From positions 1 through 53,029 of the IMG/VR virus record IMGVR_UViG_3300008267_000477: a stretch of 53,029 nt of DNA; one strand, written 5' to 3'. A program made the translations under genes and the position numbers. Below are positions 4,532 to 19,902 of this stretch, piece by piece. The DNA comes from a virus. How positions within the stretch are numbered: position 1 is the first letter of the stretch; every line of letters begins with the position of its first letter. The notes beneath the pieces are model-generated. The model saw only the letters and a list, made by a program, of their open reading frames with translations. It did no database searches and was not told the DNA's origin.

Positions 4532-4768
4532 ATGAAAATCGACAAAAAAAAGCTAATGGAACTAGCCAATATCAAGGCTAAAAAGCGCAGCCTAAGAGAG
4601 GCAAAATCCAACATTAAAACTACGTGGAGAAACGTGCAAGACCTGGAAGCAGACTTGCAGGATTGGATGACTACATTAGACGCTCAACAAGTGCAGGACG
4701 TGCTAGATACGTTGCAGAACTTCGTGGATAACTACGAGGGTGAAATGGACATGGATGACGACTTTTAA
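4532..4768 (+). CDS. Tagged small protein 1 (putative packaged protein)
   Basis: A 78-residue protein with no recognised domain. Its N-terminus, MKIDKKKLMELANIK, is a short basic segment followed by L-M-E, the first of many such tags in this window. In T4, short N-terminal capsid-targeting sequences (such as MKTYQEFIAE) end in an [LI]-x-E site cut by the gp21 prohead protease, and this tag has the same layout. The rest is a Glu/Asp-rich helical body (DLEADLQDWMTTLDAQQVQDVL) ending in a very acidic tail, MDMDDDF. It is the first gene of a tightly packed run that continues to 8716. The packaging role is inference from the shared tag. Confidence 0.7.
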   Translation: MKIDKKKLMELANIKAKKRSLREAKSNIKTTWRNVQDLEADLQDWMTTLDAQQVQDVLDTLQNFVDNYEGEMDMDDDF

Positions 4769-4770
4769 CT

Positions 4771-4783
4771 CAGTAAAACACAC
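4771..4783 (+). repeat. Repeated 13-nt intergenic leader, copy 1
   Basis: CAGTAAAACACAC occurs here and again at 5034-5046, each time in the gap between a stop codon and the next start. It could be a duplicated translation leader or the scar of a gene duplication. Confidence 0.45.
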
Positions 4784-4785
4784 CA

Positions 4786-5031
4786 ATGAAAATCACTAGA
4801 AAACAACTCATTGAGAACGCTGGAATCTTCAGAGAAGGTACTTCAGATCGCGACGCAATCGCACACTACGTGTGGGGTAGAGATGAGCTTATGGATAAGT
4901 CAGAGGACGAGATAGAACGCGTTATTGATGAGATGGAAAAAGAGTGGATGGCATCCAAAGGCAACTACCCAAGTGTCGACGAGTACATCGAGGAATTTGA
5001 TGAAAACGGCGGTATAGAAATGTTCCTATAA
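4786..5031 (+). CDS. Tagged small acidic protein 2 (putative packaged protein)
   Basis: An 81-residue protein of unknown function. The tag is MKITRKQLIENAG, with the [LI]-x-E candidate cut site L-I-E before N-A-G. The mature part would be strongly acidic and helical (DELMDKSEDEIERVIDEMEKEWMASKGN), then a short acidic segment with IEEFDENGG. It follows the previous tagged gene after an 18-nt gap that contains the CAGTAAAACACAC leader. The acidic body and tag fit an internal head protein, but nothing indicates a catalytic activity. Confidence 0.7.
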   Translation: MKITRKQLIENAGIFREGTSDRDAIAHYVWGRDELMDKSEDEIERVIDEMEKEWMASKGNYPSVDEYIEEFDENGGIEMFL

Positions 5032-5033
5032 CA

Positions 5034-5046
5034 CAGTAAAACACAC
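5034..5046 (+). repeat. Repeated 13-nt intergenic leader, copy 2
   Basis: An exact second copy of CAGTAAAACACAC, 263 nt downstream of the first, again just upstream of a start codon. Confidence 0.45.
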
Positions 5047-5054
5047 AAACAACT

Positions 5055-5417
5055 ATGATAGCGTTTTTTGCACCATTCATCATAAGTCGACAAAAATCAG
5101 CTCCACTCTTAGGTAGCAAACCGGAGTTTCAATTGGGTATTGATCAAATCAAAGTCGGCGATTGGATCGGATATTACAACACCGATAAAAACCGCTGTCG
5201 CGGTGGAGGGCAGGTAATTGAGATCCGTCCTAAATCGGTTATTTTGGATCAGGTTAGAGGGTTTAAAATTGGTAGTATGAAAACCAAAGGATCACCGGTT
5301 GGAGATGGTAAAATGGAGTTAAAAATTGGTGGTGTAAGAAGTGGCAAGTTTAATGGCTGGAAAATCATAACTCCGGATAAAATTGCTCACGTTAAAAGTA
5401 AAGGAGCACGACAATGA
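5055..5417 (+). CDS. Hypothetical protein, possible SH3/KOW-like fold
   Basis: A 120-residue basic protein. The first ~12 residues (MIAFFAPFIISR) are hydrophobic and do not match the tags of its neighbours. The body contains DQIKVGDWIGYYNTD followed by glycine-rich beta-prone segments (GGGQVIEIRPKSVILDQVRG), which would suit a small SH3 or KOW-like barrel; this is a pattern guess. Its stop codon overlaps the next start (ATGA at 5414). An untagged member in this run may act in another compartment, or the true start may be elsewhere; no better in-frame ATG is evident near the 5' end. Confidence 0.6.
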   Translation: MIAFFAPFIISRQKSAPLLGSKPEFQLGIDQIKVGDWIGYYNTDKNRCRGGGQVIEIRPKSVILDQVRGFKIGSMKTKGSPVGDGKMELKIGGVRSGKFNGWKIITPDKIAHVKSKGARQ

Positions 5418-5758
5418 AACTAACCAAGAAACGCCTAATGGAAAACGCGGGCCTGCTGCAAGAAAAAGCACCAAGCCAATACGCTATCATGGTAGGATCT
5501 CACGCTGCTAGATTAGTGGGTTTTGAGGTTTCTATATCTAGCGGTAAAGCGATGGACGGCGGTACTGTTAGTGGCGATTTTCTAGTGGTTGGATACGGTA
5601 GTATAGTGCAAAATACTACTGGGGATTTTACCTATGACACTCGTCCATCTAACGGCATAATCTTCGTACAACAAGCATGGACCGGCGGTAGTGGAAAAGT
5701 GCAAGGAGTGTTGTATCATCCGAGTATGGACGGTAATTCTATTAAAGTAAAACAGTAA
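5414..5758 (+). CDS. Tagged protein 3 (putative packaged protein)
   Basis: A 114-residue protein with tag MKLTKKRLMENAGLLQEKA. It has two candidate [LI]-x-E sites, L-M-E and L-Q-E. The remainder is glycine- and serine-rich and beta-prone (GFEVSISSGKAMDGGTVSGDFLVVGYGS), ending in a short GVLYHPSMDGNSIKVKQ segment. No catalytic motif is recognised. The start overlaps the previous stop by 4 nt and its own stop overlaps the next start (TAATG at 5756-5760), so translation is probably coupled along the run. Confidence 0.7.
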   Translation: MKLTKKRLMENAGLLQEKAPSQYAIMVGSHAARLVGFEVSISSGKAMDGGTVSGDFLVVGYGSIVQNTTGDFTYDTRPSNGIIFVQQAWTGGSGKVQGVLYHPSMDGNSIKVKQ

Positions 5759-6153
5759 TGAAATTAAGAGAACTCAAAGCCATTATCAAAGAGGAAGTAC
5801 GTAGTGTACTAAAAGAAAACGCGGCGGTAGACTACGATAAATTGGTGGATCTTATCATGGGAGCTGACAATGACAGACAGCTTGCAATATCGTACGATTC
5901 GTACCACGGTGGCATTAAAATCGGTGGAGTCACTTACTCTAAGGGAGACCTAGTAAGAGTGTTTAAACAGCCGGTTGGATCGTCGGGAGACATTAAGGCT
6001 TTGTTCTACTACGCACAACAAGATCCCGCTAAAACAAAGGCGGAAGTTGAGCGTATTGCTAAACAAAAATTCGGGCCACATAGCTTGTTTGTTTCTACGG
6101 AAAAAGGGTTCGAGAATGAGATCATTGTCAAGTATTCACCACGCATTAGATAA
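5758..6153 (+). CDS. Tagged protein 4 (long helical tag)
   Basis: A 131-residue protein with the longer tag form MKLRELKAIIKEEVRSVLKENA: an amphipathic helix with alternating basic and acidic residues, ending in candidate site L-K-E before N-A-A. The body (DYDKLVDLIMGADNDRQLAIS...) has a mixed alpha/beta pattern and a C-terminal stretch with IAKQKFGPHSLFVSTEKGFENEIIVKY, but I recognise no family. It is separated by 6 nt from the next gene, whose tag begins with the same seven residues (MKLRELK), so the two tags probably share ancestry while the bodies differ. Confidence 0.7.
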   Translation: MKLRELKAIIKEEVRSVLKENAAVDYDKLVDLIMGADNDRQLAISYDSYHGGIKIGGVTYSKGDLVRVFKQPVGSSGDIKALFYYAQQDPAKTKAEVERIAKQKFGPHSLFVSTEKGFENEIIVKYSPRIR

Positions 6154-6159
6154 TATAAA

Positions 6160-6909
6160 ATGAAACTGAGAGAATTAAAGAAAATCGTTAAAGAAGAAAC
6201 CTCTAAGGTTGTTAATGAAAAGCTGAATTTCGTACTAGGACCAACCATTCATGGTGATCCTAATAAGCCTATGAAGGACGACTTCAAGATCGCTTTTACA
6301 AACCCAAAAAAGGCGATAATGACTATCATGCAAGTCAATCAAGATCTCAAGTCTCGAGGACTTGAACCCGTTAAGTATGATAACGTAGGAGTCGTGTTTA
6401 ACAAGCCAAGCAACCAACAAATGCAATTCATCTTAAACGCGTTTAACAACGAAGATGTTATGAGCGTTGGACGTGTGTTAAAAGAAGGTACACTTAACGA
6501 AGCATCGGGATGGCCAATCGGTCATTTTGAAGTAATAAACACGTTTAAAATCACACCGGGTGGTGGCTGGCAAGTGTCGTTTAATAAGGGTGATATTCTA
6601 CGAGTTGAAGATGCTTCAAAAATGGGATATCCCGGCGTTCAAAAGATCGTAAAATGGGATGCGTTAAAGAATGATTGGGTGACTAAACGTCCGCCAATTA
6701 GCGGCATGGAAGTGTTCCCAATTGACAAGTTTGCCGGCTCATATAACTGGGTTAGTACATTCACTCAAAACACAAAAGCACTTTCAAAAGGCGCGGCGGA
6801 ATCCAAGGCAAAATCTATGGCAAAAGAGACTGTACTTAGTGCACGTGATGCCATTAAAATGCTTCAAGGATTGTCACAAAATCAACAAGTAAAAATCACG
6901 ATAATCTAA
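6160..6909 (+). CDS. Tagged two-module protein with internal cut-like site
   Basis: A 249-residue protein starting MKLRELKKIVKEETSKVVNEK, a long helical tag. Residues ~22-105 form a first module (NFVLGPTIHGDPNKPMKDDFKIAF...). A linker RVLKEGTLNEASGWP follows, containing L-K-E and L-N-E, the same site type as the N-terminal tags. The second module (FEVINTFKITPGGGWQVSFNKGDILRVEDASKMG...) resembles a small SH3-like unit and ends in a Lys/Ala-rich helix. If the prohead protease recognises [LI]-x-E, this would be a polyprotein cut into two mature internal proteins. That is inference; no enzyme signature is seen. Confidence 0.68.
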   Translation: MKLRELKKIVKEETSKVVNEKLNFVLGPTIHGDPNKPMKDDFKIAFTNPKKAIMTIMQVNQDLKSRGLEPVKYDNVGVVFNKPSNQQMQFILNAFNNEDVMSVGRVLKEGTLNEASGWPIGHFEVINTFKITPGGGWQVSFNKGDILRVEDASKMGYPGVQKIVKWDALKNDWVTKRPPISGMEVFPIDKFAGSYNWVSTFTQNTKALSKGAAESKAKSMAKETVLSARDAIKMLQGLSQNQQVKITII

Positions 6910-7193
6910 TGCCTAACACAGTGAACACAAACAAACGAAGACTACAAGAATTAGCGGGTCTTAGACTTAATGAAGGCGCGTATAGTCCACAACAAGTGGC
7001 GGCTACAAAAGCCATGATTGCTAAGGCTCAAAAGGCGAAAAGTGACATGGAATTAGTGCTTAAAGATCTCCAAAAAATGGCGGGTGAAGATCGTCGATTT
7101 GAAGGAGATGTTACGTATCTTGAACAAGTGGTCAATGCTTTACATGCGTACATTATGGACGCTGATAAGTTTGTAATACAAGGCAAAGTTTAA
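6909..7193 (+). CDS. Tagged helical protein 6
   Basis: A 94-residue protein beginning MPNTVNTNKRRLQELAGLRLNEGA, the KRRLxELAG type of tag with candidate sites L-Q-E and L-N-E. The mature part is almost entirely helical and charged (QQVAATKAMIAKAQKAKSD, then EDRRFEGDVTYLEQVVNALH) and might be a two- or three-helix bundle. It overlaps the previous stop (TAATG). Function is unknown; the tag groups it with the other putative head-internal proteins. Confidence 0.68.
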   Translation: MPNTVNTNKRRLQELAGLRLNEGAYSPQQVAATKAMIAKAQKAKSDMELVLKDLQKMAGEDRRFEGDVTYLEQVVNALHAYIMDADKFVIQGKV

Positions 7194-7199
7194 GTAAAA

Positions 7200-7316
7200 A
7201 TGGCCAAAGCTAGAAAGGAAGGAAAGCCCAAAAGGAACCGAGTTAACTTGGCTAAAAGGGCCAAAATAATCGCGCGGAATCAAGCGCTTTTGAAACAATA
7301 TGAAAATGAAAAATAA
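7200..7316 (+). CDS. Very basic 38-residue peptide
   Basis: An ORF of 38 residues, MAKARKEGKPKRNRVNLAK then RAKIIARNQALLKQYENEK, with about a third Lys/Arg. It lies in the gap between two tagged genes and overlaps the next start by 17 nt. It has no tag of its own. The composition would suit a small DNA- or RNA-binding protein, possibly condensed with the genome, but this is inference from charge only. It could be a chance ORF, although the gap has no other explanation and the ATG sits 6 nt after the previous stop. Confidence 0.45.
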   Translation: MAKARKEGKPKRNRVNLAKRAKIIARNQALLKQYENEK

Positions 7317-7629
7317 CACGACAAAACGGAGGTTAATGGAGTTGGCTGCTATCAATGAAGCGCCTCTTGATTTCAAGTATAGTCCTGAAGTTAAACAAGC
7401 AAAAGAGCAGGTAATGAACGCTGTTAAAGACTTGCCTTACAACTTCAAAGATGACGATGATATGACGTTGGCTGGTATGTTTGATAACCTACTTGCTGAG
7501 GCTCTTTTTGGAGGTGATTACGATACGTTTGAAGAGAATGATGGCTATGGTTTACGTGATAAAATAATCGGTAATATCACTCAAGCAATGAAGGTTGCTG
7601 TTGAGAAGGAACTTAAAATGATAGGGTAA
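7300..7629 (+). CDS. Tagged small protein 7
   Basis: A 109-residue protein beginning MKMKNNTTKRRLMELAAINEAP, with candidate sites L-M-E and I-N-E. A second ATG two codons in (7306) is equally possible. The body has acidic segments (NFKDDDDMTLAGMFDNLLAEALFGGDYDTFEENDGYG) and ends in a helix, IIGNITQAMKVAVEKELKMIG. No known domain. Its stop overlaps the next start (TAATG). The tag is nearly identical to that of the following gene (TKRRLMELAAIN against TKKRLMELAAIN), with quite different bodies. Confidence 0.7.
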   Translation: MKMKNNTTKRRLMELAAINEAPLDFKYSPEVKQAKEQVMNAVKDLPYNFKDDDDMTLAGMFDNLLAEALFGGDYDTFEENDGYGLRDKIIGNITQAMKVAVEKELKMIG

Positions 7630-7865
7630 TGAAACACGAAACTACAAAGAAACGACTAATGGAATTAGCGGCAATTAATAACCCGTTCAAGAACGAAGCG
7701 TTAATGGCTGCCCCAGCTGCTGCTTCTGAGGTGTTATCAATGCTTGCTCATCCCGACTTGAAAAAGAGTATGGAAATGCTTGCTGACATGCTAGACGACG
7801 CTGAGTATATGGCTATCAAGAAGCTGTATGATGGCTTGTATAACGAGGTGAAAAAGTACGAATAA
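7629..7865 (+). CDS. Tagged small helical protein 8
   Basis: A 78-residue protein with tag MKHETTKKRLMELAAINNP. The rest is helical and acidic (EVLSMLAHPDLKKSMEMLADM, then LDDAEYMAIKKLYDGLYNEVKKYE). No family is recognised. It overlaps both neighbours at TAATG junctions, so translational coupling is likely. The shared tag with an unrelated body is the pattern that defines this block. Confidence 0.7.
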   Translation: MKHETTKKRLMELAAINNPFKNEALMAAPAAASEVLSMLAHPDLKKSMEMLADMLDDAEYMAIKKLYDGLYNEVKKYE

Positions 7866-8716
7866 TGATGAAAAATACAAAGATAGAAGCGATCATTCGC
7901 GAAGAGGTTAGTGCACTTTTTAACGAAGCTGCCAACCCGGAATTAGACAGAACAGTTGATAAATTCGTTAAGGGTTTAGCAACAAAATATGGATACAAAA
8001 GCTCGGATGCTGTCATGGCTATCTTCGAAGCTTTGAAGCGTTTGAACTTAATTCACAAGGATGCAAACTACAAAGCGCCTTCTGGGTTTGAAGTTGCTGA
8101 GTCAGCTTATGCCATGTTGGGTGGCGAACATCCTATGCAAGATGCTGAGATGAGAAAGAAGGTAGTTGAGCCTAATCTAGGACCTAACTACGAAGCAGTA
8201 ATCATGTTTAAGGACTCTGCGTACAAGCAAGTAGCTGCTAAATACCCATATGCAGTGACTGAGAAGTGGAAGAATTTGTATCGCTCTTCTAACTACCAGG
8301 GATATGCACAAATCTCTCCTGATGGTAAGGTGATTAAGGCTGCGATTTTAGATCAAGGTGGAATTGTAGGAGCTTACTATATTAAGTCTGGAGCTTCGGT
8401 GTCTGAGTCATTTAAAAAATCGCACTTGAAGGGGTTGATTCGTGAGGCAGTTAATGCTAAGTTGAGAAACGAAGGAGCAATGTCTGAGTTAGATATCTTA
8501 ATGGATGAATCACGCAACTTTGCAGACTTCTTAAACAAAGTCAAATCCGATCCTAAGTTTAAAGGTGTTGATGTGAACTCTCCGGAAGTAAAGGACTTTT
8601 TACAGACTATGTGGGACGATACAATGGATAAAGGTAGTACAATGGGAATGGCAGCAGAAGGACTTATCCGACGCCTTGTAAGAGAGGAGTTAAAGCAACT
8701 AAAAAAGAGCAAATAA
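7865..8716 (+). CDS. Tagged protein with three tag-like segments
   Basis: A 283-residue protein with tag-like amphipathic segments at three places: the N-terminus (TKIEAIIREEVSALFNEAA), the middle around residues 184-205 (LKGLIREAVNAKLRNEGAM), and the C-terminus (AEGLIRRLVREELKQLKKSK). Between them lie two modules: residues ~20-180, with an N-terminal helical half and a segment AAKYPYAVTEKWKNLYRSSN, and a shorter helical module, ELDILMDESRNFADFLNKVK. It looks like fused cargo units that kept their tags. It is the last gene of the first tagged block and is followed by a terminator hairpin. Function unknown. Confidence 0.7.
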   Translation: MMKNTKIEAIIREEVSALFNEAANPELDRTVDKFVKGLATKYGYKSSDAVMAIFEALKRLNLIHKDANYKAPSGFEVAESAYAMLGGEHPMQDAEMRKKVVEPNLGPNYEAVIMFKDSAYKQVAAKYPYAVTEKWKNLYRSSNYQGYAQISPDGKVIKAAILDQGGIVGAYYIKSGASVSESFKKSHLKGLIREAVNAKLRNEGAMSELDILMDESRNFADFLNKVKSDPKFKGVDVNSPEVKDFLQTMWDDTMDKGSTMGMAAEGLIRRLVREELKQLKKSK

Positions 8717-8739
8717 CATTGCGAAAATAAATACAAAAG

Positions 8740-8765
8740 CCACTCCAAAAGAGTGGTTTTTTTTT
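8740..8765 (+). terminator. Rho-independent terminator
   Basis: CCACTC (8740-8745), loop CAAAA, GAGTGG (8751-8756), then a run of nine T. It closes the first tagged block just before promoter P4. Confidence 0.85.
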
Positions 8766-8772
8766 GTCCAAA

Positions 8773-8813
8773 CTGTTGTAAAATCGGATTTATGTAGGGA
8801 TCTTTAGGTATAA
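8773..8813 (+). promoter_or_regulatory. Early/middle phage promoter P4
   Basis: CTGTTGT at 8773-8779 and GATCTTTAGGTATAA at 8799-8813, again 20 nt between TTG and the second element. It differs from consensus at two bases. The next start, at 8827, follows AAGAGAGATATG. Confidence 0.73.
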
Positions 8814-8826
8814 AATTAAGAGAGAT

Positions 8827-9066
8827 ATGAGAGTAAAATTCACAAACACATTATTTCGCGAAGTGATATTCGGAACCATTATTGAGATGGCTACTCCGGA
8901 GCTATTCGTTATTCAAGCTGACAAAGGTGGCCGTTACATAGTCAATCCTAACTCAGATTACAATTTCGGGTTTATCTGGAATGAGGAAGCGGAACGTAAG
9001 TATGCTGAGAAATTAAATGCTGTAGCTAAGGAGCTTGAAAGATTAGACAAAGTAATTACTAAATAA
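8827..9066 (+). CDS. Small hypothetical early protein
   Basis: A 79-residue protein that I do not recognise. The first half is beta-prone (FGTIIEMATPELFVIQADKGGRYIVN) and the second half is a charged helix (EEAERKYAEKLNAVAKELERLDKVITK). It starts in the GAGAGATATG context after promoter P4. It heads a run of tiny early genes that all use the same start context, which suggests a set of small host-interaction proteins expressed early. Confidence 0.7.
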   Translation: MRVKFTNTLFREVIFGTIIEMATPELFVIQADKGGRYIVNPNSDYNFGFIWNEEAERKYAEKLNAVAKELERLDKVITK

Positions 9067-9071
9067 GAGAT

Positions 9072-9224
9072 ATGAAAAATTCTAGAAAAACAATTGATAA
9101 AAATGATAAATTTGAGCAATGGTACAAAGACTATTTAAAAAACCCTGAAATAGAAAAATTGCCATTTTATGAAAAAACAAGGCTGAAATTAGCTCCGATA
9201 TATTTTATGTACCATTATAGATAA
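9072..9224 (+). CDS. Very small early protein (50 residues)
   Basis: A 50-residue ORF starting in the context AAGAGATATG five nt after the previous stop. It is rich in Lys, Tyr and Phe (NDKFEQWYKDYLKNPEIEKL, then PFYEKTRLKLAPIYFMYHYR). No domain is known. The conserved start context and tight packing support it being a real gene. Confidence 0.6.
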   Translation: MKNSRKTIDKNDKFEQWYKDYLKNPEIEKLPFYEKTRLKLAPIYFMYHYR

Positions 9225-9236
9225 AAATTAAGAGAT

Positions 9237-9386
9237 ATGAAAAAGGTTTACATAGTTGCTGAAATGTTAGATTACGGGTTGTATGATATGGCCAATGCAC
9301 GTGCATTTGAGTTAGAATCTGACGCCGTATTTGCAGCTGAAGAAAAGGGTTTTGAAATAATAGTATTGGACGTAGTTCCAGTTTAA
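9237..9386 (+). CDS. Very small early protein (49 residues)
   Basis: A 49-residue ORF starting in the context TTAAGAGATATG. The sequence reads MKKVYIVAEMLDYGLYDMAN, then ARAFELESDAVFAAEEKGFE and IIVLDVVPV, a beta-alpha-beta-like pattern. Function unknown. It sits between another tiny early gene and the metallophosphoesterase gene. Confidence 0.6.
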   Translation: MKKVYIVAEMLDYGLYDMANARAFELESDAVFAAEEKGFEIIVLDVVPV

Positions 9387-9397
9387 TTTAAGAAGAA

Positions 9398-9919
9398 ATG
9401 AGCGTAGTAAGATTCATTGCTGACCTACATTTAGGTCACGAAAATATGGCTAAGAAACGAGGGTTTTCTAGTGTAGAAGAGCATGATGAGCATGTCATAA
9501 AAATGTGGAATAGTGTCGTGCATAAACGTGATATGACTTACATTTTAGGAGACGTTACAATGGAGTCTTCCAAACCATATCCACTGTTAGATCGACTCAA
9601 TGGTCGTAAGAAAGTTGTGCTCGGAAACCACGATATGCCCAAGCATATTCCCGAGCTTCTAAAATACGTTGACCAGGTCGGAGCTCTTATGAGATATAAG
9701 GGTGTTTGGATGTCTCATTGCCCTGTCCACCCTATGGAATTAGAGCACAGAGTTGGTCGAATCATCCACGGTCATATTCACGAAAAGTTCGTGGAAAAGT
9801 GGTTTACTTTTTTAGGGTTTAACTTGTTCAAACGCATTGATCGTCGATACTATTGCGTGTCGTGTGAGCATGTTGACTACACTCCAAAAACCCTTGCTGA
9901 ATTAGGAATAATAAGATAA
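9398..9919 (+). CDS. Calcineurin-like metallophosphoesterase
   Basis: A 173-residue protein with all the metal-binding blocks of the calcineurin-like phosphoesterase superfamily in order: ADLHLGHEN (D9, H11), YILGDVTM, VVLGNHDMP, WMSHCPVHP and IIHGHIHEK. The enzyme would hydrolyse phosphomono- or diesters with two bound metal ions; phage members of this size are usually of unknown substrate, with nucleotides or nucleic-acid ends possible. It starts 12 nt after a tiny early gene, with an AAGAAG purine stretch upstream instead of the GAGAGATATG context. The early position suggests a role in nucleotide or nucleic-acid metabolism, which is inference. Confidence 0.88.
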   Translation: MSVVRFIADLHLGHENMAKKRGFSSVEEHDEHVIKMWNSVVHKRDMTYILGDVTMESSKPYPLLDRLNGRKKVVLGNHDMPKHIPELLKYVDQVGALMRYKGVWMSHCPVHPMELEHRVGRIIHGHIHEKFVEKWFTFLGFNLFKRIDRRYYCVSCEHVDYTPKTLAELGIIR

Positions 9920-9923
9920 CAAT

Positions 9924-10007
9924 ATGGATAGAGAAAAATTTGCTTCAATCGTATGCCAATCTGTATTGGCAGTTAGTGCCCTAGTATATGCTCAGACGTA
10001 TAGCTAG
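9924..10007 (+). CDS. Possible 27-residue hydrophobic peptide
   Basis: MDREKFASIVCQSVLAVSAL then VYAQTYS: a short hydrophobic stretch that could be a signal-peptide-like or membrane-associated peptide. It begins 5 nt after the metallophosphoesterase stop. It has no GAGAGATATG context. It may be a real micro-protein or chance. Confidence 0.35.
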   Translation: MDREKFASIVCQSVLAVSALVYAQTYS

Positions 10008-10031
10008 CGGTTCATAACTCGGTTCATAACT
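10008..10031 (+). repeat. 12-nt tandem direct repeat upstream of promoter P5
   Basis: CGGTTCATAACT occurs twice head to tail (10008-10019 and 10020-10031), 23 nt upstream of the CTGTTGC-like half of promoter P5. It could be an operator for that promoter. Confidence 0.5.
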
Positions 10032-10053
10032 TACAAAAATAAAACGCGGTTTT

Positions 10054-10092
10054 GTTGCATTTGTAAGATATTGTTCCGACCTTTAGGTATAA
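10054..10092 (+). promoter_or_regulatory. Early/middle phage promoter P5
   Basis: TTTGTTGC with TTG at 10055-10057, then GACCTTTAGGTATAA at 10078-10092 with the same 20-nt gap. It leads to ATG 10108 in the context GAGAGATATG. Confidence 0.77.
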
Positions 10093-10107
10093 CAAAAAAA
10101 GAGAGAT

Positions 10108-10917
10108 ATGAAAACAATTGAATTAACCCCCGCTGAATTGGAGATGATCCAATTAAAACGTGAACAAGAAGAGTTAGCTGCACAAGAAAAAGCTGCTCTC
10201 AGACAAATTGCAATCGAGAAAGAGATTGCTCGAGCTACCTTATATGTTAAGAACTATATGGATAGAAGTGCTCAACAAGTGAAAGCTGCTGAGGAGTTTG
10301 CTAAGTTAATCCCAACTGCTACTTATCATGTTGATAAGACTGAACGTACCGTTAATGCTTGCTACGATAGAGAGGTTGTTGAAACCCTCAAGTACACAGA
10401 GAGTAATGCTTACCTGATGTTAAAAGGATATAAGATCTCAGTGACCGAACATATAGTGTACAATAAGTGGAACTACCGAGGATCTAGTAGAGGATATAAG
10501 ATGTATGTCTCAGGTCCTGGTATCGACTACAAGACTTCAAATCGTGGTTACAAAAACGGTAAGAAAGTTGTTGAGTTAATTGAAGATACAATCGAAGCAA
10601 GAAAAGCTCAGGAGTTGTATAAGAACAAACAACGAAATGCTGTTGAGACTGCTGTTGCTAATTTAACTGAACAATTCCCTAACGCTAGGATCAACTCCGG
10701 ACGTGGTTGTAAGATTAATCCTTACGGTTCTGCTTCTAATCGATACACCGAGTATGATGAGATTGTTGTTGTGCTTGAAAACGGAATCGAAGTAAAGTAC
10801 CGAGTTTATGAGAATGGTGAGCTATCTAGAATGGATCTTAGGTTTCCAAACGCCAATGCGACACAGTTGCTCTCTCAGTTAAATGAAATGAATTTTTCTA
10901 CCGAAACTGTTGCTTAA
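10108..10917 (+). CDS. Hypothetical early protein with N-terminal coiled coil
   Basis: A 269-residue protein I cannot place in a family. Residues ~5-50 form a charged coiled coil (ELEMIQLKREQEELAAQEKA). Two similar beta-containing units follow: residues ~85-165 (KYTESNAYLMLKGYKISVTE, with SSRGYKMYV) and a C-terminal unit with NARINSGRGCKINPYGSASN and a YDEIVVVLENGIEVKYRVYE strand pair. The many Tyr, Lys and Asn residues suggest nucleic-acid contact, which is a guess. It follows promoter P5. Its last codons carry the upstream half of the next promoter (P6). Confidence 0.75.
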   Translation: MKTIELTPAELEMIQLKREQEELAAQEKAALRQIAIEKEIARATLYVKNYMDRSAQQVKAAEEFAKLIPTATYHVDKTERTVNACYDREVVETLKYTESNAYLMLKGYKISVTEHIVYNKWNYRGSSRGYKMYVSGPGIDYKTSNRGYKNGKKVVELIEDTIEARKAQELYKNKQRNAVETAVANLTEQFPNARINSGRGCKINPYGSASNRYTEYDEIVVVLENGIEVKYRVYENGELSRMDLRFPNANATQLLSQLNEMNFSTETVA

Positions 10918-10947: not shown

Positions 10948-10960
10948 ACAAAAGAGAGAT

Positions 10961-13365: not shown

Positions 13366-13379
13366 CCTCAACTAAGTAC

Positions 13380-13387: not shown

Positions 13388-13388
13388 T

Positions 13389-13420: not shown

Positions 13421-13426
13421 ATTCCT

Positions 13427-14107
13427 ATGATAAAGTTAAAACAGCTTATAGAAATGGTGACTGGCGAAGAGCAGTCTCGAGAGGAGTATGTGCTTAAACT
13501 ATCTCGTGAAATTGTCACAGCGTTTAAAAGTGGAACTGCTAGATATAAAACTACCTTTGACTACGTACGAGGTGATGAGTCTGTCGATTTGCTTGTTGAT
13601 ATTAAGTTTATTAAGCGACCTAACCAAGAGCATGCCTTTTCCATTGCTGCAGGATATGGACCTAGAACTTTTGTTAAAAAAGACGAAGATGCACTAGAGC
13701 TTTTAATTGAATACAATCCTAGCGCCTTTCCTAAAGCAATGAATGCGTTTGTGTCTGAGATAAAGGAAACTGTAGAGCATGAGTTTGAGCATGTTGGTCA
13801 ACAAAACTTCGAAGGACTTTATATCATATCCAATCGCTACAACGAGCCGTTGGCTTATCCTGAAGAGGCACCACAAGCACACAGTCACTTTCACTATCTC
13901 ACTAGTAACGTAGAAGTGCCTGCTTATGTTAAAGGATTGCTTAAGCGTGCTAAAGTTAATAAAATAACCTTCGAACAAGCCTTAGAAGATTACTATAGTG
14001 ACTACAAAGATACCTTTGTTTTGTATAACACAAGCTGGCCTACAGTGAAAAAGATTTGGAAGGATTGGGCAATAGCGAATCGAGATAGGCTTAGAAAGTT
14101 CACATGA
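13427..14107 (+). CDS. Tagged zinc-metallopeptidase-like protein 1
   Basis: A 226-residue protein. The N-terminus MIKLKQLIEMVTGE is the MIKLKxLLxE tag with candidate cut L-I-E. The body holds H118-E-F-E-H122 in VEHEFEHVGQQ, an HExxH zinc-binding motif, and E163 in NVEVPAYV is a plausible third ligand. This makes a gluzincin-like metallopeptidase likely, though the family is not recognised. In context it is the first of six genes with the same tag (through 17494), each with a different body. If the tag targets the head, this protease would be delivered with the DNA and could act on host proteins or phage proteins in the capsid. Target unknown. Confidence 0.75.
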   Translation: MIKLKQLIEMVTGEEQSREEYVLKLSREIVTAFKSGTARYKTTFDYVRGDESVDLLVDIKFIKRPNQEHAFSIAAGYGPRTFVKKDEDALELLIEYNPSAFPKAMNAFVSEIKETVEHEFEHVGQQNFEGLYIISNRYNEPLAYPEEAPQAHSHFHYLTSNVEVPAYVKGLLKRAKVNKITFEQALEDYYSDYKDTFVLYNTSWPTVKKIWKDWAIANRDRLRKFT

Positions 14108-14493
14108 TTAAACTCAAAGACATATTATTTGAAAGCATAACTCAAGCGCAACTAAAGTCGCTTGAACAATACGCTGACAAGTTATTTGCAGTTGTAGGAA
14201 TAGATGTAGAGTTCTCGAAACACTTCTTTGATCGAGTAAACGATCCCCGCAACTCTAAACCTATTTCAGACGCTGAGCTGACTGATATGTTTCAGAAAAC
14301 ATACGAGAAGTATGGTAAAAAGATATCACAACTTGGCCCTGAAGCAGAAGCTGTGATTGTTGATATGCAAAAGGATATTAACATTCCGTTTGTGTTACAT
14401 TACAATACTCAACACCAGCAACTGGAACTTGTCTCTAAAACAATAATGCGAAAGAAGAACTTTCAAACCACTAACCAAAAGCTAACCGTATAA
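14104..14493 (+). CDS. Tagged conserved phage protein
   Basis: A 129-residue protein with tag MIKLKDILFES (cut site L-F-E). The body has a distinctive pattern: FSKHFFDRVNDPRNSKPISD, then YEKYGKKISQLGP and a C-terminal INIPFVLHY...LELVSKTIMRKKNFQT. I recall similar sequences as hypothetical proteins in other large myoviruses, and the layout (one helix, then strands) is reminiscent of RelE/BrnT-type small toxins; that comparison is weak. It overlaps the previous stop by 4 nt (ATGA). Confidence 0.68.
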   Translation: MIKLKDILFESITQAQLKSLEQYADKLFAVVGIDVEFSKHFFDRVNDPRNSKPISDAELTDMFQKTYEKYGKKISQLGPEAEAVIVDMQKDINIPFVLHYNTQHQQLELVSKTIMRKKNFQTTNQKLTV

Positions 14494-14504
14494 TTAATTA
14501 GTAC

Positions 14505-14512
14505 TATTTATT
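14505..14512 (+). promoter_or_regulatory. Late-promoter-like CTATTTATT
   Basis: TATTTATT preceded by AC, only 3 nt from ATG 14516. The match to other copies is good, but so short a distance implies leaderless translation or a non-promoter role. Confidence 0.4.
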
Positions 14513-14515
14513 AAC

Positions 14516-15268
14516 ATGATAAAGCTAAGAAACCTCCTAACCGAAATCTCACAAGAGGATGCCAATATAGCAAACCTCGCTGCACTAGGTGCTGAGACTG
14601 TAGAAGACATCTCTTTTAAGTTTAAAAGCCAAAAAGCTGCGACACCTAAAGGGGTATTAATTCACGACATAATTACTATCGAAGCGTTTAATTTACCTGA
14701 CAAAGAAAACATACAATTTCAGAGGTATCATCTAATTTTTGGTGAAAGTAGTATGGCAATCTTTGATGCGTTTGGTGTTAATGAGACTGCAGGTCTTACT
14801 AGAAAAGATTGCCAAGCTCACTTGGATAAGTTAGCAGCTGAAGGGAAAACTGAAACGTGGGATGGTGCTTATATTGCTGGATTAACTAACTGGTCTGGTG
14901 CTGAATACTACTGCTTCTACAACGTAGGTAGATTGTTGTGGCCCGGCTACGCTAATCGAGTATTGCCTCACGAATCTCTTCACTTGGCACGTGGTTTAAT
15001 TACAATCGAAGCTAACGAATATATTAGAACCAATCAAGGTAAGGATAAGTGGTGGGAAGACGAAAGAGCTACTTTTACACAACTAAGTGACGATAATGAG
15101 GAGTACTTTGCTGAGACTCTTGAGCGCTGTAACGCTATTGCTTACAGTAGGTGGGATAAGGCTAAGTCCATGATGAAAGTTCCACCAAAGACTGGAACAC
15201 CAGTATCTCCTTCCGTAGGTAAGACGTCTGGTATCGATATCACTCAAACTCCAAAACAGCAAAAGTGA
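14516..15268 (+). CDS. Tagged zinc-metallopeptidase-like protein 2
   Basis: A 250-residue protein with tag MIKLRNLLTEIS (cut site L-T-E). It carries H152-E-S-L-H156 (RVLPHESLHLARG) and, downstream, EEYFAETLE, where E200 is a plausible third zinc ligand, so it is probably an HExxH-E metallopeptidase. It is not obviously related to the peptidase-like protein at 13427 outside these motifs. The C-terminus is a low-complexity Pro/Thr/Lys tail (PPKTGTPVSPSVGKTSG). Its stop overlaps the next start (GTGA). The tag and neighbours suggest a head-packaged enzyme; substrate unknown. Confidence 0.75.
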   Translation: MIKLRNLLTEISQEDANIANLAALGAETVEDISFKFKSQKAATPKGVLIHDIITIEAFNLPDKENIQFQRYHLIFGESSMAIFDAFGVNETAGLTRKDCQAHLDKLAAEGKTETWDGAYIAGLTNWSGAEYYCFYNVGRLLWPGYANRVLPHESLHLARGLITIEANEYIRTNQGKDKWWEDERATFTQLSDDNEEYFAETLERCNAIAYSRWDKAKSMMKVPPKTGTPVSPSVGKTSGIDITQTPKQQK

Positions 15269-16287
15269 TAAAAATTAAAAGCCTACTTCGCGAGGTTCGT
15301 TCCGATAAAATCGAACAGCAAATTGGTGATTACTTGAAGAAGTATCAAGCCAGCTCCTGCGCAGCTTATGTGTATAAGGATGGTAAGCCTTTGTTCGAGT
15401 ATTACAAAAATGCTGACAAAAGTAGTGTGTTTGGAATTGGATCAGTAAGTAAGGGTATAGATAAGATAGCCATAATGAAGTTAGTTCAAGATGGCAAGAT
15501 GAAGCTTTCCGATCCACTTTTTAAGTTTGGCTTTGATGTTCCGAAGGATGGTATTAACCTGGTTAATTACTACAATTGGGATTACTGGGAATCCGTGACT
15601 ATTGATCATTTAATGCATCACAAGTCTGGTATTCCAGATCTTATTAATGACATTCCAGAGTTTAACTTTCACTATGGTGAACATGGAAAGGACGAAGATC
15701 CAGACGAGCTCACAATACTTCGTGCACTAGCTAAGTACCCCTTTTACTTTAAGCCTGGTGAGCAGGAAAACTACAGTAACTCTAATTTTTGGTTTATTGG
15801 AAAGGTGATCGAGAAAGTTACCGGTAAGTCTTATGGCGATGCTATTAAGGAGCTTGTATTTGATCCGCTAGAGATGAAGAATACCTATTGGGCTTACAAA
15901 AGCACTAATCCTCCAGGATTGGTGAAAGGTAATGTCCTTGATGCTACTACAAACAAGCTGCTTCCCGCTTTTGAAATCAAACCGTTTGATGCGTGGGCAA
16001 TTTTCTACAGTACTCCAGATGATATGCTTAAATTGGGGGATGCTTTCATTAACGACAAACTGCTATCTGCAAAGACACGAAAGATGTTCTTTTCACCAGA
16101 ACCAGAAAACTCTCCAGGTCAGTTGGGTGCAATCCATGACGGATATACTTGTAGATGGGATGCATACGCTTCTAAGGGAGTTGTGATTTTGTTTGTTGTC
16201 AATGTGTTTGGGCAGACAGTAGTAGAACCAACTATGGTGATTGGAAAACAAATGCGAGACTCTTTTGTAACCGGATTATCCCAATGA
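15265..16287 (+). CDS. Tagged class C beta-lactamase/DD-peptidase-like serine hydrolase
   Basis: A 340-residue serine hydrolase of the beta-lactamase (class C)/DD-peptidase superfamily. The three active-site blocks are present: S60-V-S-K63 (SxxK), Y170-S-N172 (YxN) and H291-D-G293 (HxG). HHKSGIP and a WFIGKVIEKVTGKSY helix also fit the family. The start is GTG 15265, overlapping the previous stop; it is supported because it gives the tag MIKIKSLLREV (cut site L-R-E). Family members cut D-Ala-D-Ala peptides, beta-lactams or small esters. A phage member with a packaging-like tag could act on host peptidoglycan at entry, or hydrolyse a host ester; both are inference. Confidence 0.85.
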   Translation: MIKIKSLLREVRSDKIEQQIGDYLKKYQASSCAAYVYKDGKPLFEYYKNADKSSVFGIGSVSKGIDKIAIMKLVQDGKMKLSDPLFKFGFDVPKDGINLVNYYNWDYWESVTIDHLMHHKSGIPDLINDIPEFNFHYGEHGKDEDPDELTILRALAKYPFYFKPGEQENYSNSNFWFIGKVIEKVTGKSYGDAIKELVFDPLEMKNTYWAYKSTNPPGLVKGNVLDATTNKLLPAFEIKPFDAWAIFYSTPDDMLKLGDAFINDKLLSAKTRKMFFSPEPENSPGQLGAIHDGYTCRWDAYASKGVVILFVVNVFGQTVVEPTMVIGKQMRDSFVTGLSQ

Positions 16288-16937
16288 TAAAACTCAAACA
16301 CATATTACAAGAAATACAAGAGACATTTGATGATGCCGCATTTCACGGTAATGGTATGACTCCACAAGAGATGCGCACTGGTACTTGTAGTACGACGTGG
16401 CATACTCCGGATCAAGATACTGGATGTCCTAAGTTTGAATTTAGAGGAGGGCGGATATCTGACGAAGTATTGCAGCTAGCTTTACAGTATCTTAATAGCG
16501 AGGATATCAATACACTTATAGCGTTTTCGGCCGGAGGACCGTTGTTGATGGTTGCATTGTCAGCTGGAGCAAAGAGGCCGAAGCAAATTAATTTTGTAGC
16601 ACCGGCTTGGAAGAAGACTTGGGCTAAAGGTCGTACAATCAATCCACAAGATAGTGCTGGTCCTGGCTTCATAGTTCATGGAGTAGATGACATAGCAGTT
16701 CCTATTGCACATTCAGCTGAGCTATCAATCAAGACAGGAATGCCTTTATACATCTTTAAGGATAGACACCATATTACAATACTCAAACACAAACTCTCAC
16801 CTGCGGGTGGATTCCATTTAACTGGTAAAGACTTAACAAGAGCTTTGCAGGAATTACCGGATTGGGGAGTTGATCGTTGGGAGGCTAATCCCGAAGAGCT
16901 TAAGCAACAGCAAGACTGGTTCAAAGCACTCATGTGA
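16284..16937 (+). CDS. Tagged alpha/beta-hydrolase-like protein
   Basis: A 217-residue protein with tag MIKLKHILQEIQE (cut site L-Q-E). The body looks like an alpha/beta hydrolase: a nucleophile-elbow-like LIAFSAGGPLLM, then GFIVHGVDDIAVPIAHS (acidic residue after a strand), and KDRHHITILKH for the histidine. The elbow is F-S-A-G-G rather than G-x-S-x-G, so catalysis is not certain. It overlaps the upstream stop by 4 nt. It could be an esterase or lipase-like enzyme delivered with the DNA; no substrate can be inferred. Confidence 0.7.
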   Translation: MIKLKHILQEIQETFDDAAFHGNGMTPQEMRTGTCSTTWHTPDQDTGCPKFEFRGGRISDEVLQLALQYLNSEDINTLIAFSAGGPLLMVALSAGAKRPKQINFVAPAWKKTWAKGRTINPQDSAGPGFIVHGVDDIAVPIAHSAELSIKTGMPLYIFKDRHHITILKHKLSPAGGFHLTGKDLTRALQELPDWGVDRWEANPEELKQQQDWFKALM

Positions 16938-16951
16938 TTTACAAGACAACT

Positions 16952-17494
16952 ATGATAAAACTAAAATCCCTACTACCAGAAGCCTTTGCTGACACTTACG
17001 AAAAGAATAAGTGGATCCAACTACCTAAGGATGTTGTGAAGACTTATGCTGATGAAATGATCGATCTTATTGTTAGCGCCTACACTGCTAAGGGAGGAAA
17101 CTTTGAATTTAAGAACGCTGACGATATAAAAAAATCCGATCTAGATTTCTGGATTGCCAATGATATTGATGCCGATCCTGAGATGGATGCTGTAATTGGC
17201 GGAAAGAGAACTCCAGCCGGTACCAAGATGACTGTTTTTGGTCAAGATGGTAGCAGCGCGGCTAAGCGAGTTGGTATGACTAAAATGACCGACTACATGA
17301 AAGAGCGAGGCTTTTATGCTGAAGTTGATATTGATTTAGCTGCTAAGTTAGGAGTTGATTACATAAAGGATGAGGCTTTGATTCGCAAGGTACTCAACAA
17401 AGATATTAAGATGAATGCCGATGGAAGTTACAATAGAAAACTTACTGATGGTCCAGTAAAGACTAAAGTATTGATTGGTATTCCAAAGGTGTAA
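16952..17494 (+). CDS. Tagged hypothetical protein
   Basis: A 180-residue protein with tag MIKLKSLLPEAFA (cut site L-P-E). I take ATG 16952 rather than the upstream GTG 16934, because only the former gives the tag at the very N-terminus. The body has GGKRTPAGTKMTVFGQDGSSAAKR, a glycine-rich basic stretch that loosely recalls acyl-CoA binding in GNAT acetyltransferases, then MTKMTDYMKERGFYAEVD and a long C-terminal beta-rich part. The GNAT comparison is weak and I give no function. It closes this set of tagged genes and is followed by a strong terminator. Confidence 0.65.
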   Translation: MIKLKSLLPEAFADTYEKNKWIQLPKDVVKTYADEMIDLIVSAYTAKGGNFEFKNADDIKKSDLDFWIANDIDADPEMDAVIGGKRTPAGTKMTVFGQDGSSAAKRVGMTKMTDYMKERGFYAEVDIDLAAKLGVDYIKDEALIRKVLNKDIKMNADGSYNRKLTDGPVKTKVLIGIPKV

Positions 17495-17528
17495 GGCACG
17501 GCTTAGGACCGTATGGCTATGGCCATTA

Positions 17529-17570
17529 AACCACTTCAAGTGTCGCTACCTGGAGTGGTTTTCTTTTTTA
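17529..17570 (+). terminator. Rho-independent terminator
   Basis: AACCACTTCA (17529-17538) pairs with TGGAGTGGTT (17551-17560), with one G-U pair, followed by TTCTTTTTTA. It ends the tagged enzyme operon. Confidence 0.85.
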
Positions 17571-17578
17571 AGAACACC

Positions 17579-17586
17579 TATTTATA
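17579..17586 (+). promoter_or_regulatory. Late-promoter-like TATTTATA in a palindrome
   Basis: The motif is embedded in ACCTATTTATAGGT, which is nearly self-complementary. It lies 4 nt before ATG 17591. Confidence 0.45.
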
Positions 17587-17590
17587 GGTA

Positions 17591-18382
17591 ATGGAAGTAA
17601 GAGGATATATTCGCCCTGAGTCTTGTTTTGCTACAATATCTCAATGGGAAGACATAGCACGTTTGTTTCTTTTATTGCAAAAGAAAGGTGTTGATACTCG
17701 TAGTGGAATTTTAGATTCTGACCCTAAATTAGCAGCACTTGTGATGCGTTGGTTTGGTCATCAGCTGTTTGTAGAAACTCAGCTATTTGATCAGCTTACT
17801 CAGAAAAATGTACTAGACTTTGTAGAAGATTTTGTTAACCACCGAGTGTGGGGTTTAAGAAGAGAGTTTGGTACTTACTTCTACAAGGATGGTGAAGATG
17901 GTAGCTTTCTGGAAGATGTAAAAATCGCGTACTTTTATTCGAGAGGTGACATAGAGCCTTATGTGTTATTAGACGATGACTTTGTAATGGCTGTGTACGG
18001 TTCAACGACACATAAGGTGCAGACAAAGCACTGGACGACCGAGCAGGGATTGAAAAATCTATCTGACTCGATCGAGAATAATCATACGTTCGCAATAAGC
18101 ACTTTTACTAAACAATGGAAACCATTTTTCAGAAAAGAAAGTAATGTGCTTCTTTTGTTAGAAGGTAATTTGCGAGCTGCGTTTCGAAGTGATGTCAAGT
18201 CTCTAGCAACAGATAGAGGGAATCGAGCTGTAAATATGTATAGACTTGCTTACCCTGAAGGAGGTAGTAATTTGTGTATGAAATTAGACACGCTCGACAT
18301 TGGTGGTGCTACTTCTTTGTGGAATGAGTTTATCATAAAGCCAACTGCGATTCTAAAAGCAAAAACAATACCGAAACACTAA
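17591..18382 (+). CDS. Hypothetical protein before the lysis genes
   Basis: A 263-residue protein with no recognised family and no packaging tag. It has an N-terminal helical region (ATISQWEDIARLFLLLQKKG), a GLRREFGTYFYKDGEDGS loop in the middle, and a C-terminal half with FRKESNVLLLLEGNLRAAFR. It stands alone between a terminator with a late-type motif upstream and the late-type motif that precedes the holin candidate, so it is probably expressed late. Function unknown. Confidence 0.65.
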   Translation: MEVRGYIRPESCFATISQWEDIARLFLLLQKKGVDTRSGILDSDPKLAALVMRWFGHQLFVETQLFDQLTQKNVLDFVEDFVNHRVWGLRREFGTYFYKDGEDGSFLEDVKIAYFYSRGDIEPYVLLDDDFVMAVYGSTTHKVQTKHWTTEQGLKNLSDSIENNHTFAISTFTKQWKPFFRKESNVLLLLEGNLRAAFRSDVKSLATDRGNRAVNMYRLAYPEGGSNLCMKLDTLDIGGATSLWNEFIIKPTAILKAKTIPKH

Positions 18383-18391
18383 ACCCTGTCC

Positions 18392-18399
18392 TATTTATA
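18392..18399 (+). promoter_or_regulatory. Late-promoter-like CTATTTATATTAA
   Basis: TATTTATA, 13 nt before the start of the first lysis gene. One of five copies at a nearly constant 12-13 nt from the start codon. Confidence 0.6.
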
Positions 18400-18412
18400 T
18401 TAAACAAAGGTT

Positions 18413-18622
18413 ATGACATTACCAAAGCCTTTACTAAAAATGAAAAAGAACTACTACAGCCCGACTCCAGCTAAGTGGAGGAAGTTGGGTGATGCCTTAC
18501 TAGGAGTAAGCACTACAATCACCGGTTTCGCTATTTATGAAGAAGCTAAGTGGGTAGCTATTGCAGCTCTATTATCGGGTGTTGTAGGTAAGTTCCTTAC
18601 TAACCTTTTTTCAGAAGATTAA
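18413..18622 (+). CDS. Small membrane protein, holin candidate 1
   Basis: A 69-residue protein with a basic N-terminus (KKNYYSPTPAKWRK) and two hydrophobic segments, LGDALLGVSTTITGFAIYEE and AKWVAIAALLSGVVGKFLTN. It lies 2 nt upstream of the endolysin gene, which is the usual place for a holin, the membrane protein that lets endolysin reach the peptidoglycan. Length and topology fit. A second candidate lies just after the endolysin, so the roles (holin, antiholin) cannot be assigned. Confidence 0.6.
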   Translation: MTLPKPLLKMKKNYYSPTPAKWRKLGDALLGVSTTITGFAIYEEAKWVAIAALLSGVVGKFLTNLFSED

Positions 18623-18624
18623 TT

Positions 18625-19302
18625 ATGAGCTTAGATCTAACAAAGATTAAACAAGTTCCGTTACGCGAAACTCAGTTTATTAAAGAGGAAACAAAAAAGA
18701 AGCAAGTCGTATTACATCATACTGCAGGTAACTCTTCAGCTCCTGGTACGATTAAGATGTGGGATGCAGATGATCGAGGTCGTATTGCTACCTGCATTGT
18801 TATATCAGGAAAGGGATTGTCTAAGGACACTTTTGATGGTGAAATCTGCCAAGCATTCTCTTCTAAGTTTTGGGGCTATCACTTAGGTATTAAACCAGAC
18901 GTATTCAAGTCGCGAGGTATTGCTTATCAAAGTTTAGATAAGATTTCAATAGGAATTGAAATTTGCAACTGGGGACCTTTAACTAAGAAGGGAGATAAGT
19001 TTTACAACTATGTTGATAGAGAGGTTGCGTTGGATCAAGTTTGCACTCTTGCAACACCATACAAAGGTTACACACACTATCATGCATATACAGATGCTCA
19101 GATCGAATCCGTTAGACAGCTTCTTCTCTACTGGAAGGGTGTTCACGGAATCGACTTAACATACAGAGAACAGGATATGTGGTCAGTTTCGGACCGAGCG
19201 TTGAAAGGTGAGAATGGATTATTTACTCACAACTCTTATCGTAGGGATAAGTCTGACATTTCACCTCAACCGAAGATGATTGCAATGTTAAAAAATCTAT
19301 AA
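18625..19302 (+). CDS. N-acetylmuramoyl-L-alanine amidase (endolysin)
   Basis: A 225-residue amidase_2/PGRP-type endolysin. LHHTAGNSSAPGTIKMWDAD near the N-terminus holds the first zinc histidines (H31, H32), and there is a GIEICNWGP core strand and a HYHAYTDAQIESVRQLL segment with the second histidine position. Such enzymes cut the bond between N-acetylmuramic acid and L-alanine in peptidoglycan and release progeny at the end of infection. No signal peptide is visible, which agrees with holin-dependent export. It is flanked on both sides by small membrane-protein genes. The C-terminal ~50 residues (EQDMWSVSDRALKGENGLFT) might be a wall-binding part. Confidence 0.88.
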   Translation: MSLDLTKIKQVPLRETQFIKEETKKKQVVLHHTAGNSSAPGTIKMWDADDRGRIATCIVISGKGLSKDTFDGEICQAFSSKFWGYHLGIKPDVFKSRGIAYQSLDKISIGIEICNWGPLTKKGDKFYNYVDREVALDQVCTLATPYKGYTHYHAYTDAQIESVRQLLLYWKGVHGIDLTYREQDMWSVSDRALKGENGLFTHNSYRRDKSDISPQPKMIAMLKNL

Positions 19303-19321
19303 ACCATAAAAACAAAAAACC

Positions 19322-19489
19322 ATGAACAAAGAAAAAGTATTAGGTATTGTTCGTCACGTTTTGACTTTTGGAGGTGGTATCTTAATTGCTAAAGGTATTA
19401 TCGACGAGTCGACTGCGAGCGAAATCATTGGTGGAGTTATCACTCTAGTTGGTGCTATCTGGTCAGTCGTTGCTAAAAACAAAGCATGA
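19322..19489 (+). CDS. Small membrane protein, holin candidate 2
   Basis: A 55-residue protein, MNKEKVLGIVRHVLTFGGGI then LIAKGIIDESTASEIIGGVI, with two hydrophobic segments (residues ~6-24 and ~34-50) and a lysine-bearing C-terminus. It resembles short two-span holins seen next to endolysins in phages of Bacteroidota, as far as I can judge from pattern. Its stop overlaps the next start by 4 nt (ATGA). Confidence 0.6.
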   Translation: MNKEKVLGIVRHVLTFGGGILIAKGIIDESTASEIIGGVITLVGAIWSVVAKNKA

Positions 19490-19902
19490 ATCTAAAACAC
19501 CTTTTGATAGAAGTTGAGACAAAATGTCCTGCAGCAACGCAGGACATTAATCTCAATTTAGATAATCGTCAAAAGGCTATCGACAAGTATCACTACGGTC
19601 CTGCCAATCCAGATCATCCAGAAAATTACTGGAAGGATGCTGCTAAAAGGTGGAACGTATCTGAAGCGACTGCTAAAACTATGAAGTGTGCGAACTGCGC
19701 AGCTTTTGATGTTTCAGATAAGATGTGGGCTTGTATGGAAAAAGGTATTCTTGGAAAAGAGAAGAATGTTGATGCAATGGCTACTATAGAAAAAGCCGAC
19801 TTAGGTTATTGTAATTTTTTACACTTTAAATGTGCAGGTTCAAGAAGTTGTGCTGCATGGGTTACTGGTGGATCTATTGATGATAAAGATCGTACGAAAT
19901 AA
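19486..19902 (+). CDS. Tagged Cys-rich conserved phage protein
   Basis: A 138-residue protein with the tag MNLKHLLIEVET (cut site L-I-E). The body has cysteines in a conserved-looking arrangement: KCANCAAFDV, MWACMEKG, DLGYCNFLHFKCAGSRSCAAW. I recall similar proteins in other myoviruses with resemblance to high-potential iron-sulfur proteins; an Fe-S or zinc site is plausible. The tag places it with the putative head-packaged proteins although it is cotranscribed with lysis genes, to which it is joined by a 4-nt overlap. Confidence 0.72.
   Translation: MNLKHLLIEVETKCPAATQDINLNLDNRQKAIDKYHYGPANPDHPENYWKDAAKRWNVSEATAKTMKCANCAAFDVSDKMWACMEKGILGKEKNVDAMATIEKADLGYCNFLHFKCAGSRSCAAWVTGGSIDDKDRTK

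Follow-up and report, generated by a model that had tools for sequence, protein, structure and literature searches.

Tagged genes of the phage fragment

The DNA analysed here (the window) is the entire 53-kb IMG/VR record IMGVR_UViG_3300008267_000477 (53,029 nucleotides), a fragment of a contractile-tailed phage with gp25-like and gp6-like baseplate genes. We have focussed on genes between positions 4532 and 19902 whose products begin with short N-terminal segments, here called tags, resembling the capsid-targeting sequences (CTS) of phage T4. The initial annotation counted about 17 such proteins; the 16 open reading frames (ORFs) in 4532-19902 do have the N-termini it described, while the remaining one, at 38724, had to be dropped. 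The three types of short segment that it distinguished, all basic or hydrophobic, were recovered as class A (MIKLKxLLxE, with the variant MNLKHLLIE), class B (KK/KR-x-LMExAxI) and class C (IIKEEVxxVLKE), and the bodies of the 16 tagged window genes are mutually unrelated, as it had said. Its [LI]-x-E ending holds generally, but 13427 has LIE at residue 9 and 7629 has LME only at residue 12. The tagged genes are the following (^ marks the boundary after the glutamate).

4532..4768, + strand: class B protein, MKIDKKKLME^, tag 4532-4561
4786..5031, + strand: class B protein, MKITRKQLIE/NAGIFRE^G, tag to 4836
5414..5758, + strand: class B protein, MKLTKKRLME/NAGLLQE^K, tag to 5464
5758..6153, + strand: class C protein, MKLRELKAIIKEEVRSVLKE^N, tag to 5817
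6160..6909, + strand: class C protein, MKLRELKKIVKEETSKVVNE^K, tag to 6219; internal VLKE/GTLNE^A at 6475-6501
6909..7193, + strand: class B protein, MPNTVNTNKRRLQELAGLRLNE^G, tag to 6974
7300..7629, + strand: class B protein, MKMKNNTTKRRLMELAAINE^A, tag to 7359
7629..7865, + strand: class B protein, MKHETTKKRLME, tag to 7664; no second [LI]xE, the later FKNE not being [LI]xE
7865..8716, + strand: class C protein, MMKNTKIEAIIREEVSALFNE^A, tag to 7927; second tag-like helix 8423-8473 (LRNE^G), third helix 8651-8701
13427..14107, + strand: class A protein, MIKLKQLIE^M, tag to 13453; HEFEH motif 13778-13792
14104..14493, + strand: class A protein, MIKLKDILFE^S, tag to 14133
14516..15268, + strand: class A protein, MIKLRNLLTE^I, tag to 14545; HESLH motif 14969-14983
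15265..16287, + strand: class A protein with GTG start, MIKIKSLLRE^V, tag to 15294; SxxK motif at 15442
16284..16937, + strand: class A protein, MIKLKHILQE^I, tag to 16313
16952..17494, + strand: class A protein, MIKLKSLLPE^A, tag to 16981
19486..19902, + strand: class A variant, MNLKHLLIE^V, tag to 19512; body of the KCPxATQ family

At the DNA level the window has no close match to named phages, and its relatives, identified by gp6 and a MoxR-type ATPase, are environmental phages. Among the long ones the closest is G001 (122 kb), whose gp6 is 66% identical to that of the window. Since the capsid protein of G001 is nearest, among named phages, to those of Microcystis phage Mel-JY01 and Flavobacterium phage immuto, with that of Rhodothermus phage RM378 further off, the clade probably belongs to the outer T4 branch called Far-T4. 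Several window families recur with their tags: homologues of 13427 in L262 and G001 retain a class A tag, a tagged protein with a body related to that of 7865 is found in G001/L082, and the KCPxATQ body of 19486 occurs also behind tags of classes A and C. Immediately upstream of the first tagged-gene block (271-4097, + strand) lie the MoxR-type AAA ATPase and a VWA/peptidase-like gene, and the same ATPase also adjoins a tagged-gene block in G001.

The rejected member, 38724..39194 (+ strand), is a tail-module protein with a class-C-like N-terminal helix. It is a single gene with one conserved body, located before gp25 in 52 relatives, and has no clear [LI]xE end.

Conservation of the tag and its links to T4 head proteins

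A plain [LI]xE within the first 35 residues is too common by chance to serve as a test, and position-specific profiles were therefore chosen. In the window itself, regular expressions picked post hoc from these same genes matched six N-termini for class A (0.06 expected from internal frequencies) and five for class B (0.00 expected). A class A profile built solely from the six tags of the window and tested on other contigs scored at least 14 bits in 54 of 2,100 N-termini, against 0.22 expected from internal 10-mers starting with Met, and the class B profile found five N-termini in the same 2,100 genes, with 0.0 expected. The class C expression gave no N-terminal match in any group; it was dropped as a statistic, and this class rests on homologues and on tag swaps. 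When the class A pattern was back-translated and sought in IMG/VR, at least 120 stretches matched, compared with two for a reversed-peptide control with the same codons. Among the matches listed (132), 130 begin an ORF no shorter than 45 residues (median 153) and the tag precedes 82 unrelated body clusters. By inspection, about 20 tagged genes were counted in each of the relatives G032 and G030. Tagged relatives exist in culture too, e.g., Flavobacterium phage vB_FspM_immuto of strain LMO8, with tagged proteins at 103366, 112261 and 113188 of NC_055915, and Microcystis phage Mel-JY01.

In an alignment of 80 tagged proteins conservation is confined to the tag columns, positions that are largely fixed by the search pattern. 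With class A tags collected under a looser rule, information falls from 4.3 bits at the glutamate to 1.0 and 0.45 at the next two residues. The Leu/Ile codons vary between tags while the residues are constant, so what is conserved is the peptide and not the DNA: the tag is a peptide-level signal ending at the glutamate. Tight operons and A-rich first codons could also be expected of a translation leader, or of leftovers from duplicated 5' gene ends, in which an efficient start had been copied widely with no role in the protein. We give this explanation almost no credence, as besides the codon variation the glutamate boundary is kept inside polyproteins, distant from any start codon (see below), and T4-style tags substitute on the same bodies.

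The CTS of T4 provides a standard of comparison. In the T4 internal protein IPIII the first ten residues are enough for packaging; residues 4 and 7 are important in targeting and 8 and 10 in processing, a change of the Glu to Asp stops processing but leaves targeting intact, and the gp21 protease cleaves after L/I-X-E (PMC9026906). The glutamate stands at residue 10 in the MKTYQEFIAE of IPII and IPIII, in the MAKINELLRE of gp24 and in the MIKLKxLLxE of the window, and class A, with hydrophobic residues at 4, 7 and 8, fits the CTS throughout (apart from the LIE at residue 9 of 13427). Classes B and C, being longer, match the layout only in part.

The initial annotation had proposed to look for a gp21-like protease and for the same sites in head proteins; both turned up in the relatives. 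The gene order in G001 is terminase, portal, S77 (gp21-type) protease (PF03420, E=3.9e-28; phrog_207, E=4.9e-51), an acidic scaffold-like gene and a gp23-type capsid protein, and an S77 protease is present in 16 of 41 relatives, G001 included. The major capsid proteins of the relatives keep QAKQL[LIV]xE[AGS] ca. 50-65 residues in, matching the FLTE^A at residue 65 of T4 gp23. Moreover, a small core protein gene between protease and scaffold starts in most relatives with MKLKRILKE^N, MIKLKDLLKE^ or similar, and MKVNNILAE^S, MNINSILKE^S or MDLKNILNE^G is found at the beginning of several capsid proteins, which places the tag on undoubted head components.

The most telling link to the T4 CTS is the natural exchange of tags on the same body. 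The 14104 body carries in L268, L271, L289, L290 and L298 the T4-style tags MKSFKQFTISE, MKTFKQYIILE, MKSFKRYITE, MKSFSRYISE and MKSFSQFKE, and the record of L298 (G059) has an S77 protease. A homologue of the 16952 family in L289 begins with MKSFKHFVKE^E, and the DLRxWFGKG family in L290 with MKRFKNYIAE. These swaps, the tagged core and capsid proteins, the relatives' protease and their capsid site strongly support in silico the idea, put forward in the initial annotation, of a T4-type capsid-targeting signal. They also bear on a different reading, in which the tag would be a signal for localisation or assembly within the cell (an amphipathic membrane anchor, or a helix docking to an infection compartment) that is retained on the protein and has nothing to do with packaging. 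The segments are indeed basic and hydrophobic, and class C is a long amphipathic helix seen too on the tail-module gene 38724. However, such a signal would have to stand at the start of several capsid proteins and of the core gene next to the protease, be exchanged for a T4-style CTS, and leave an [LIVF]xE behind where the tag is absent and the domain lies inside a polyprotein, and we regard it as very unlikely.

The boundary at the glutamate, polyproteins and C45-like enzymes

The junction between tag and body is kept when the tag changes. One body follows a class A tag in MIKLSNILFE^DLRAWFGKG and a class C tag in MKKPQLEHLIKSAVRKVIVE^DLRKWFGKG, and a body starting (I/V)G(E/D) occurs in six versions with different preceding sequence, all of them xE^(I/V)G. 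Homologues devoid of the class A tag have [LIVF]xE at most four residues from the start of the body in 55 of 81 cases (15.5 expected). The same holds for domains embedded in longer proteins (50 of 68, with 11.4 expected; for example LLKE^DITKSQLD in L299 and VELSE^DLRKWF in G001), so that the cargo domains of polyproteins are parted by the same kind of site. The body of 14104 is also found embedded in this way, and in its AlphaFold2 model residues 1-7 have a pLDDT (predicted confidence) below 50 and the body one above 90.

Large proteins in which cargo domains are often separated by [LI]xE (G021:113569-118257, G032:88375-91110 and L299:2447-6286) look like head-processed polyproteins. Several of them have a nucleotidyltransferase (CTP_transf/NadR-like) N-terminus. 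In the window, the segment at 6475-6501 of 6160 is a possible second domain boundary, and since internal tag-like segments end in LNE^A in this protein and in LRNE^G in 7865, the sequences suggest that each is a two-domain polyprotein.

A particular case is that of five relatives of a C45-type acyltransferase/hydrolase, in which a conserved cysteine immediately follows the [LM]xE that closes the tag or the domain in front:

G001 94892-95764 (L240:14892-15764, - strand), C45-like enzyme
L300:2552-3427, C45-like enzyme
L379:8317-9132, C45-like enzyme
L306:9338-12181, C45-like enzyme
G006 52882-54201, C45-like enzyme

The assignment comes from NCBIfam NF040521, with E values of 3e-10 to 2e-5 that are under the curated cut-off, and PDB searches gave no match. 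C45-type enzymes use an N-terminal cysteine freed by cleavage. A cut at the glutamate would thus expose the presumed catalytic cysteine, and the site fits exactly. If so, the prohead protease may replace autoproteolysis, activating the enzyme only in the head.

Cargo, proposed delivery and comparison with known systems

The tagged proteins had been described as a more enzymatic set than the T4 internal proteins, which is borne out across the relatives, although the window has a single firm enzyme fold. This is 15265, with a serine beta-lactamase / D-Ala-D-Ala carboxypeptidase / esterase fold (PF00144, E=6e-41, the alignment starting at residue 17). By their motifs 13427 (HEFEH) and 14516 (HESLH) are possible zinc peptidases; the structure model of 13427 is poor (pLDDT 67) and the HExxH motif is what speaks for this reading there. 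16284 could be an alpha/beta hydrolase, on a weak match. For 14104 a fold search with the confident model gave as best hit the HigB2 toxin, which is not significant (E=0.02, TM ~0.3), and PADLOC returned nothing convincing. No relatives of 14516 were found in viral_contigs, and 15265 had one spurious partial match only, so the gain of the tag by these two bodies cannot be traced. Elsewhere in the window, a phage tmRNA (26580-26977, + strand) encodes the tag peptide ANKYNSEDMMSIPTSITRVAEEAELLLAA, seemingly long for a tmRNA tag.

Tagged proteins of the relatives include NUDIX, a zeta-toxin-like kinase, HYD1-type ADP-ribosyltransferase (ART), HAD phosphatases, RimK-type ATP-grasp, RNase_T exonuclease, lysozyme, and M23 and MPTase-PolyVal metallopeptidases, functions assigned from sequence. 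T4 Alt is an ART too. This diversity is relevant to another alternative, namely that the tagged proteins belong to the core or scaffold, being packaged in order to build the head and then cut up or kept inside, and are not injected. One tagged family is in fact the core gene between protease and scaffold, and in T4 the core proteins gp22, gp67 and gp68 are substrates of gp21, while IPIII affects head assembly (PMC9026906). Yet most of the tagged bodies are mutually unrelated and patchy in distribution, and for several, being enzymes (ART, zeta-type kinase, NUDIX, RNase_T, M23, lysozyme), a part in the scaffold is implausible, which makes a purely structural function extremely unlikely.

We believe that the segments are very probably capsid-targeting propeptides. 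During head assembly each tag would dock the protein that bears it in the core of the prohead, around the scaffold, and a gp21-type prohead protease, encoded outside the fragment, would cleave after [LI]-x-E; the freed bodies would remain in the head alongside the DNA, pass into the host on infection and act there as early host-takeover or counter-defence proteins. We infer docking, cleavage, retention, injection and function from the conservation of the tag, the boundary at the glutamate, the protease and capsid site of the relatives, the tagged core and capsid proteins and the T4-style swaps. Several points weigh against this proposal. The residue after the glutamate (P1') is unrestricted, which leaves the cleavage site without a sharp definition; in class B the conservation runs on beyond the first LxE, and the second sites of 7629 and 4532 are weak. 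The junction cases include homologues, and their p-values therefore overstate independence. Tagging is not obligatory for the SHPGMVEE-family body, which is untagged in phage immuto. The window contains neither a head module nor an S77 protease, and this protease is found in only 7 of 14 long class A contigs, these being fragments. Finally, we found in the literature no virion proteomics or genetics for this phage or for its cultured relatives immuto and Mel-JY01.

On a wider scale, we lean towards the view that a large, mostly uncultured T4-related (RM378/Far-T4-like) clade has a general delivery system, in which a modular tag and [LI]xE linkers would bring some 20 or more proteins per genome into the head and the maturation protease would also activate some of them, e.g., those with a C45-type N-terminal cysteine. 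Injected phage proteins are usually identified singly by proteomics; here those probably injected would be readable from the phage genome itself through the tag. If this is true, ten residues and a glutamate mark head cargo across many environmental phages, providing a list of candidate takeover or counter-defence proteins of more than 80 unrelated families with mostly unassigned functions, and the T4 CTS as an evolutionary loading device, as suggested in PMC9026906, becomes a general, testable rule.

The closest known system is the CTS of T4 IPI, IPII, IPIII and Alt, also processed by gp21, with which the tags share a length of about ten N-terminal residues, hydrophobic residues at 4, 7 and 8, [LI]xE at residue 10, unrelated bodies and, in the relatives, a gp21-type protease and the same type of site in the major capsid protein. 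The differences are that T4 has MKTYQEFIAE and here the consensus is MIKLKDLLxE plus two longer classes, that T4 has three internal proteins plus Alt and here at least 16 tagged genes lie in a 53-kb fragment, and that the relatives have many enzyme domains and polyproteins in which [LI]xE separates the cargo domains. Polyvalent proteins (Iyer et al. 2017, PMC5512222) are likewise predicted to be packaged in the head and injected, and the domain types overlap (ART, the zincin MPTase-PolyVal). However, they fuse domains in one chain, whereas here we find mostly separate, single-domain proteins with one tag each, the fused versions in relatives carrying a protease-type [LIVF]xE between domains. 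Giant phages of the phiKZ/SPN3US type eject many head-packaged proteins, some of them processed after Glu by a gp21-like protease, but their propeptides mostly exceed 100 residues (PMC5694885) and a 10-residue tag common to dozens of unrelated bodies is not described for them. We found no published description of the window tag in open-access papers, which does not prove its absence. T4-type capsid targeting is known; what is new here is a different tag, far more cargo and the polyprotein forms.

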